Part shown: piece after piece, positions 20,443-21,802 of the stretch
Position numbering within the stretch: position 1 is the first letter of the stretch
Layout of the letters: each line of letters begins with the position of its first letter
Assembly (NCBI RefSeq): GCF_000013225.1
Contig: NC_007776.1
Coordinates: 1,455,001 to 1,519,000 of the forward strand
Reading direction: 5' to 3'
Length of the DNA stretch: 64,000 nt
Origin: Synechococcus sp. JA-2-3B'a(2-13)
Lineage (GTDB): Bacteria; Cyanobacteriota; Cyanobacteriia; Thermostichales; Thermostichaceae
The notes under the pieces: model-generated
The model's input: the letters and a program-made list of their open reading frames with translations, nothing else
Database searches by the model: none
Told to the model about the DNA's origin: nothing
Made by a program: the position numbers and the translations under genes

Positions 20443-20507
20443 GACTTCCCGCTGGTCTCTCCGCCAGGAAACCGGATCCCTGAGGTGTCAAACGAGGTTT
20501 TTTCGGG

Positions 20508-20513
20508 TATAGT
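20508..20513 (+). promoter_or_regulatory. Candidate -10 element for the DAHP synthase leader
   Basis: TATAGT at 20508-20513, with TGTCAA about 17 bases upstream as a weak -35. It would start a transcript near 20520, just before the leader peptide. This is a tentative assignment. Confidence 0.35.
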
Positions 20514-20545
20514 TATCTCGTACAGGTTTTAAGTTTGTTCTCCGC

Positions 20546-20620
20546 ATGGTCTGGCGCGCTTCCTTTTTTGGCTACTTTAGCTTTCCCTGGCAACGACCAG
20601 GGCAGAAGGGTGGCGCGTAA
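20546..20620 (+). CDS. Aromatic-rich leader peptide of the DAHP synthase gene (putative)
   Basis: A 24-codon frame, ATG 20546 to TAA 20620. The first 15 residues are MVWRASFFGYFSFPW: Trp at 3 and 15, Phe at 7, 8, 11 and 13, Tyr at 10. Seven of fifteen residues are aromatic, including all three products of the shikimate pathway. The following residues (QRPGQKGGA) are not aromatic. There is no strong Shine-Dalgarno. It ends about 110 bases before the DAHP synthase ATG and overlaps the first hairpin of the attenuator. By analogy with trpL/pheL leaders, its translation rate should report charging of tRNA-Phe, -Tyr and -Trp. The inference rests on sequence alone. Confidence 0.8.
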   Translation: MVWRASFFGYFSFPWQRPGQKGGA

Positions 20621-20683
20621 ACAAAGACCTACAGTTTACCCGAGTCAGTCCTGAAGCCCTGAGCCCAGCGCCAGGGCTTTTTT
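20585..20683 (+). terminator. Transcription attenuator: alternative hairpins and an intrinsic terminator
   Basis: Four segments can be paired by eye. Segment 1 CCCTGG (20585-20590, the Pro-Trp codons of the leader) pairs with segment 2 CCAGGG (20597-20602). Segment 3 AAGCCCTG (20654-20661) pairs with segment 4 CAGGGCTT (20672-20679), an 8-base stem followed by T's to 20683: an intrinsic terminator. Segment 2 as CAGGGC (20598-20603) is also complementary to GCCCTG of segment 3 (20656-20661), giving an antiterminator. A further hairpin GTAAAC/GTTTAC (20617-20622, 20634-20639) would bring 2 and 3 together. A ribosome stalled on the Phe/Tyr/Trp codons would free segment 2 and allow readthrough. 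Confidence 0.8.
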
Positions 20684-20731
20684 GATGGCTCGACGACCCC
20701 ATCTACCCACTTGCACGCTGAGGACAGTTCC

Positions 20732-21802
20732 ATGCCCCCTCAAACCGACAATTGCAATATCCAAGAGGTGACTCCCTTGATTGCCCCTGCTGCTGTCAAG
20801 GCCAAGCTGCCCCTTACGGAAACGGCAGCCCAGGTGGTGCTCTCCACTCGGCAAGCCATCCGCGACATCATCCACGGACGGGATCTCCATCGCTTGGTGG
20901 TGATCGTCGGCCCCTGTTCCATCCACGATCCCGCAGCGGCTCTGGAGTATGCCCATCGCCTCAAGCGGGTGGCCGACCAAACTCGGGAGCACCTAGTGGT
21001 TGTCATGCGTACGTATTTTGAGAAACCCCGCACCACGGTGGGCTGGAAGGGCCTGATCAACGATCCCCACCTGGATGGCTCCTGCGACATTGCCACCGGC
21101 CTGCAACTGGCCCGTTCCATTCTCTTGCAGATCAACGAGCTGGGCCTGGCCTGTGCCACCGAGATGCTGGATCCGGTGACCCCTCAGTACACGGCAGATC
21201 TGGTGAGCTGGGCGGCCATTGGCGCCAGAACCATCGAAAGCCAAACTCACCGGGAAATGGCCAGCGGCCTCTCCATGCCTGTGGGCTTCAAAAACGGCAC
21301 CGACGGGCGGCTGGAAATTGCGCTCAATGCCATTCTCTCCGCCAGCCATCCCCACAGTTTCCTGGGCATCGGCCAAGATGGCATGACGGCTCTGGTGAAA
21401 ACCACCGGCAACCCGGATCGGCACATCGTGTTGCGGGGGGGAGGGGGCAAGACCAACTACGGCCCGGAAGATGTGGCGCGGGCGGCACTGCTGATGAAGG
21501 ATCAAGGGATCCCTCGCTCGGTGATGGTGGACTGCTCCCATGACAACTCCCACAAAAATTACCGCAAGCAGGGATCCGTCTGTCGAGCGGTGCTACAGCA
21601 GTACCAGGCGGGGCAGCGGGCTCTGATGGGGCTGATGCTGGAGAGCAACCTCTACCCGGGCAAGCAAACCTGGCAGGAAGGGGCGCCGCTCCAGTACGGG
21701 GTTTCCATCACCGATGGCTGCATCGGCTGGGAAGAGACGGAAGCTCTGTTGTGGGAGATGGCAGCGACCGTAGAGGGGAGAGCGTTGGCCCTCAGCCATT
21801 GA
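20732..21802 (+). CDS. 3-deoxy-7-phosphoheptulonate (DAHP) synthase, class I AroFGH type
   Basis: Condenses phosphoenolpyruvate and erythrose 4-phosphate, the entry step to Phe, Tyr and Trp. It has 356 residues, like E. coli AroG. Motifs: VIVGPCSIHDP (about residue 60), MRTYFEKPRTTVGWKG (about 95, PEP and E4P binding), ESQTHREMASGLSMPVGFKN (about 170) and MVDCSHDNSHKNY (about 270, metal-binding His). ATG 20732 is preceded by TGAGGA at seven bases; an upstream TTG (20711) is less likely. Expression is probably set by the leader and attenuator directly upstream. Which E. coli paralogue it resembles in feedback control cannot be told by eye. Confidence 0.93.
   Translation: MPPQTDNCNIQEVTPLIAPAAVKAKLPLTETAAQVVLSTRQAIRDIIHGRDLHRLVVIVGPCSIHDPAAALEYAHRLKRVADQTREHLVVVMRTYFEKPRTTVGWKGLINDPHLDGSCDIATGLQLARSILLQINELGLACATEMLDPVTPQYTADLVSWAAIGARTIESQTHREMASGLSMPVGFKNGTDGRLEIALNAILSASHPHSFLGIGQDGMTALVKTTGNPDRHIVLRGGGGKTNYGPEDVARAALLMKDQGIPRSVMVDCSHDNSHKNYRKQGSVCRAVLQQYQAGQRALMGLMLESNLYPGKQTWQEGAPLQYGVSITDGCIGWEETEALLWEMAATVEGRALALSH

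Follow-up and report, generated by a model that had tools for sequence, protein, structure and literature searches.

The DAHP synthase locus and its leader

The window, that is, the whole stretch of 64,000 nucleotides analysed here, belongs to a genome made of one 3,046,682-base contig (2,932,766 bases in the near relative G001) and carries at positions 20732-21802 the gene of a type I (AroFGH) DAHP synthase of 356 aa including the stop, which matches TIGR00034 with 482 bits for a cut-off of 173.2. This gene and the leader elements described below lie on the + strand. The enzyme is the sole DAHP synthase of the genome, PF00793 giving one match and PF01474 none. We compare it throughout with a family set of eight genomes, six of the genus (the window's own included) and two from other genera; 96 genomes were searched with the enzyme. 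Among five family genomes tested, only G007 holds a second DAHP synthase gene, located at G007:C227:32303-33040.

Between the DAHP synthase gene and the upstream gene, which codes for a SufR regulator, lies a short open reading frame (20546-20620) of 24 codons, MVWRASFFGYFSFPWQRPGQKGGA*, running from an ATG at 20546 to a TAA at 20618-20620. Direct reading of the sequence bears out what the first-pass annotation had described here: the frame itself, a composition in which 7 of the first 15 codons specify Phe, Tyr or Trp (W3, F7, F8, Y10, F11, F13 and W15), and the position of the DAHP synthase ATG at 20732 together with its spacing from an upstream T run. A candidate promoter matching the consensus (20485-20513) combines a -35-like GTGTCA at 20485-20490 with a -10 box TATAGT at 20508-20513, from which transcription is predicted to start around position 20520; a GGGTATANT -10 box occurs at or near the same position in six of six genus members. 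No Shine-Dalgarno sequence was seen ahead of the leader frame, which is nonetheless probably translated by the ribosome, as the conservation of the frame indirectly suggests.

Alternative pairings in the leader RNA

Four short segments had been proposed to pair in mutually exclusive ways, and their positions are correct. Segment 1 (CCCTGG, 20585-20590) consists of the Pro-Trp codons and pairs with 20597-20602 (CCAGGG) of segment 2 (CCAGGGC, 20597-20603), of which 20598-20603 can alternatively pair with segment 3 (GCCCTG, 20656-20661). Segment 3, which lies inside AGCCCTGAG, invariant in 8/8 leaders, can in turn pair with segment 4 (CAGGGCTT, 20672-20679, read directly from the sequence). The extents proposed for these segments fall short of the full helices. 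In the 1:2 (anti-antiterminator) hairpin, an outer arm joins 20556-20568 to 20604-20616. The 2:3 antiterminator forms a long rod in which CAGGGC/GCCCTG is followed by an internal loop, by AGGGTGGC paired with GTCA-TCCT and, at the apex, by a hairpin that spans the leader stop codon. The middle and apical part of the rod (20607-20652) pairs 20607-20614 with 20644-20652 and forms the hairpin 20617-20622/20634-20639, whose GTAAAC/GTTTAC stem carries the stop codon. The 3:4 pairing belongs to an intrinsic terminator (20653-20683) with a stem of 20653-20661 plus 20663-20664 against 20670-20680 and a T run at 20678-20683, at which termination likely occurs. The terminator is in turn surrounded by a 7-bp outer helix (20641-20647 with 20686-20692), whose formation requires that the T run has been passed.

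All six pairs of the inner 1:2 helix are kept in 8/8 family leaders, with G-U changes confined to segment 2, and 3 of the 12 pairs of the outer arm have changed on both sides in a compensatory manner. The terminator stem and T run are present by sequence in every family genome, 94% of the terminator cells being paired, and for the 1:2 hairpin plus terminator the share of paired cells exceeds that of all 500 of 500 shuffles and of all slid versions. For the antiterminator, 91% of cells pair; its pairs seldom vary and so offer no covariation evidence. A rod of the antiterminator type is predicted in 8/8 leaders when a ribosome masks the RNA up to Phe13; in L007 and L008 the rod sequence differs, yet a hairpin persists. 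The free leader RNA folds better than its shuffles, with a z of -2.3.

Ribosome position and the predicted choice of fold

A translating ribosome was modelled as a mask that begins at the start codon and extends 12 bases beyond the A-site codon's first base. The RNA was folded through segment 3 and no further, corresponding to the transcript present before segment 4 is synthesized. With this footprint (+12), the probability of the 2:3 pairing in the eight leaders is 0.76-0.99 for a ribosome at codon 10, 0.85-1.00 at codon 11 and 1.00 at codon 13, and drops to 0.00 from codon 16 onward in 8/8. In seven of the eight leaders it is 0.00-0.04 without a ribosome, the exception being L008, in which the antiterminator forms to 0.77 even then. 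The switch boundary lies between codons 15 and 16 in every leader, W15 being the last aromatic codon, and masking up to the control codons F8, Y10, F11, F13 and W15 (codons 8-15, 20567-20590) switches the fold. Across footprints between +8 and +14, the value for codon 13 holds at 0.95-1.00 in every leader; those for codons 10 and 11 remain high in most leaders but fall in L006, where the smaller footprints bring them down to about 0.35.

In the window, the energy required to free segment 3 amounts to 0.2 kcal/mol without a ribosome, 7.2 with a stall at F13 and 1.3 with a ribosome at the stop codon, and it goes up on stalling in 8/8 leaders. When synonymous codons and the spacer were randomised, 11 of the 500 resulting leaders matched the switch amplitude by this free-energy measure. 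Folding with and without a ribosome mask, the check suggested by the first-pass annotation, thus gave the anticipated switch, ribosomes at codons 10-13 leading to 2:3 pairing and those past codon 16 leaving segment 3 free, and the masked folds support the prediction that the 1:2, 2:3 and 3:4 pairings exclude one another under control of the ribosome. In the full-length window RNA at equilibrium, the terminator beats the antiterminator at the stall positions tested; the model therefore depends on the order of co-transcriptional folding.

Conservation and distribution

The leader lies directly upstream of the DAHP synthase gene in 8/8 family genomes, with a length of 24-28 codons and a start codon always 13 codons ahead of the Pro-Trp pair. 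Residues F8, Y10, F11, P14, W15 and G19 are invariant, G19 being part of segment 2, and the codons TAC-TTT and CCC-TGG are fixed even at their third positions, in a context where the two most distant leader peptides share just 33-38% identity with that of the window. Position 13 is occupied by F, Y or S across the family, and W3 is found only in the window and in its nearest relative (L002). Close relatives lacking the frame, or keeping neither the aromatic codons nor the alternative pairing, would have spoken against an attenuator; alignment of the relatives instead revealed the frame, the aromatic codons and both pairings in all eight.

A covariance model, R1, built from the eight family leaders finds one match per family genome with an E-value of 6e-18 or better. 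Over 382 other cyanobacterial genomes of the class it gave nothing convincing, with five weak matches (E 0.007-0.09), two of which, in G014 and G255, look unrelated on reading. No comparable leader was found upstream of DAHP synthase in about 55 other cyanobacterial regions, among them that of the sole further genome from the order, and the five family genomes inspected show no conserved attenuator at trpE, pheA, leuA or ilvB. A scan of Rfam returned no match at gathering score and none meaningful at E up to 5, which speaks against a known riboswitch or an Rfam amino acid leader such as the Trp, Leu, His and Thr leaders. The leader-plus-terminator arrangement occurs once in the window versus none in 20 Markov-shuffled windows, and aromatic-rich short reading frames alone arise about 0.35 times per shuffled 64-kb window. 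Taken alone, the shuffle test is of moderate weight, and conservation is the strong argument against a chance origin.

A model for attenuation and its alternatives

The leader, its conservation, both alternative folds and the location of the switch boundary come directly from sequence and computation; the response of the element to aromatic amino acids is what we infer from them. Very probably, the element acts as a ribosome-mediated transcription attenuator of the classical kind, with a multivalent response to aromatic amino acids, and the textbook layout recognized by the first-pass annotation is supported in its essentials by the leader, the terminator and the predicted exclusive pairings. 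In this model, transcription would begin near position 20520 and a ribosome would translate the 24-codon leader. When charged tRNA-Phe and tRNA-Tyr, and possibly tRNA-Trp, are plentiful, the ribosome would reach the stop codon and either cover segment 2 or depart and let the 1:2 hairpin form; segment 3 would then pair with segment 4, and RNA polymerase would halt at the T run (around 20683). Under a shortage of Phe or Tyr, the ribosome would instead stall within codons 10-13 and mask both the outer arm and segment 1; segments 2 and 3 would then form the long antiterminator rod, allowing readthrough into the only DAHP synthase gene.

Two explanations that dispense with a sensing leader peptide fare poorly. 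A constitutive terminator preceded by a chance reading frame, with no regulation at all, could draw on the frequency at which aromatic-rich short frames turn up in shuffled windows, but the joint arrangement of leader and terminator was never recovered in the 20 shuffles and the whole is conserved in 8/8 genomes, two other genera included, which makes this the least credible reading. Hardly more plausible is a terminator governed by another regulator, be it a riboswitch that binds a metabolite or an attenuator under protein control, with the aromatic frame being incidental. The conserved, structured 5' UTR with its terminator would suit such a regulator, as would a leader frame devoid of a Shine-Dalgarno sequence and translation steps that are predicted only. 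However, the Rfam scan offers no candidate, F8-Y10-F11-P14-W15 is invariant in a fixed frame whose start is always 13 codons upstream, and the fold-switch boundary coincides with the last residue of this invariant block.

The identity of the amino acids sensed is a more delicate question. The first-pass annotation had the leader reading all three aromatic amino acids at once, and this stands for Phe and Tyr, whose codons 10-13 are placed where a stall frees segment 2; it is less secure for Trp, as W15 sits on the switch boundary and W3 is poorly kept. Predicted sensing of Phe and Tyr is thus well supported by the masked folds, whereas sensing of Trp would depend on the exact ribosome footprint. 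A realistic alternative, although one we consider distinctly less probable than not, is that the same attenuator responds to Phe and Tyr only, Trp15 being kept as part of the CCC-TGG that forms segment 1, and a stall at W15 covering segment 2 and favouring termination. Segment 1 indeed does not vary and finds its partner in segment 2 in 8/8 leaders, and aroR of Corynebacterium glutamicum reads Phe-Tyr-Phe (PMC11802643). The outcome of a W15 stall is split by footprint: the antiterminator probability is 1.0 at +8 to +9 and 0.82 to 0.67 at +10 to +11, which argues for Trp sensing, but the 2:3 probability declines from 0.5 to about 0.3 at +12 to +13, as the Phe/Tyr reading would have it, and is near 0 by +14. 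The Pro-Trp codons also remain fixed despite G-U changes opposite them in segment 2, which speaks against the Phe/Tyr-only alternative.

Origin of the DAHP synthase gene

In a tree of 127 proteins, the family's DAHP synthase branches with those of Nitrospirota and Binatota with full support, apart from other cyanobacterial enzymes, and its identity is about 65% to the former versus about 55% to the latter. The simple reading is that the gene was replaced through horizontal transfer. The leader is absent from the sampled Nitrospirota and Binatota DAHP synthase loci, which removes these loci as its donor; the switch therefore either arose as an addition in this family or was brought in from a donor outside the sample. 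A single DAHP synthase without isoenzymes would have to respond to every aromatic end product, and a mixed leader would suit such a gene.

At L103, L067, L110 and L064, too, the DAHP synthase gene is preceded by a candidate aromatic leader peptide with a strong terminator after it. Such candidates occur at single loci in Deltaproteobacteria/Myxococcota and in Chloroflexi MAGs, with peptides containing for example ATYFGFYFYF, AYRYYYCYYY or FFWFGYW. Aromatic attenuators at DAHP synthase genes may have arisen repeatedly.

Relation to known attenuators

The trp, pheA and ilvGMEDA leaders of E. coli share a four-segment layout, and ilvGMEDA offers the classical case of several amino acids being read by a single leader. 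The leader described here follows this layout and differs from those three by its mixed Phe/Tyr/Trp block and by its target, the common entry to the pathway. No relation to them was detected by the Rfam scan, which covers only some of these leaders.

According to a survey of leader peptides published in 2016, reliable data on cyanobacterial attenuation did not exist (PMC4833913); no later case was found in the open-licence literature, in keeping with the initial remark that no described cyanobacterial example of this kind was known. The composite proposal that this is the first cyanobacterial ribosome-mediated attenuator found, sensing Phe, Tyr and Trp together in one leader, and that a single family acquired or evolved it in association with the exchange of its DAHP synthase for a Nitrospirota/Binatota-type gene, is one that we hold tentatively, at slightly under an even chance. 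If true, it would imply that transcription and translation are coupled tightly enough for attenuation in a cyanobacterium. The conserved leader provides a direct test of whether ribosomes trail RNA polymerase closely enough for this in cyanobacteria, and would constitute a native control point for the flux into the shikimate pathway.

Attenuation of DAHP synthase has precedents in other bacteria, so that the novelty first ascribed to the element holds for the phylum and not for the regulated gene. The aroR leader ahead of aroF in C. glutamicum is reported to exert ribosome-mediated transcription attenuation of DAHP synthase through Phe-Tyr-Phe codons (PMC11802643 citing Neshat et al., 2014; PMC4046766), and an early attenuation proposal for E. 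coli aroF is cited in PMC8632094. Judged by function and layout from these accounts, our element resembles aroR as a leader-peptide transcription attenuator at a DAHP synthase gene. Unlike aroR, its aromatic block ends in an invariant Trp codon, and C. glutamicum, a member of another phylum, has two DAHP synthases (PMC4046766) where the present genome has one. The uORFC-13-1 motif ahead of aroF, predicted in Acholeplasma and in unassigned environmental sequences, likewise joins an upstream frame with at least one Phe codon to a terminator ahead of DAHP synthase (PMC8632094), whereas the block described here contains three kinds of aromatic residue. The mechanism is thus a textbook one, and within the literature that could be searched, what is new is the RNA family, which has no Rfam match, and the phylum in which it resides.
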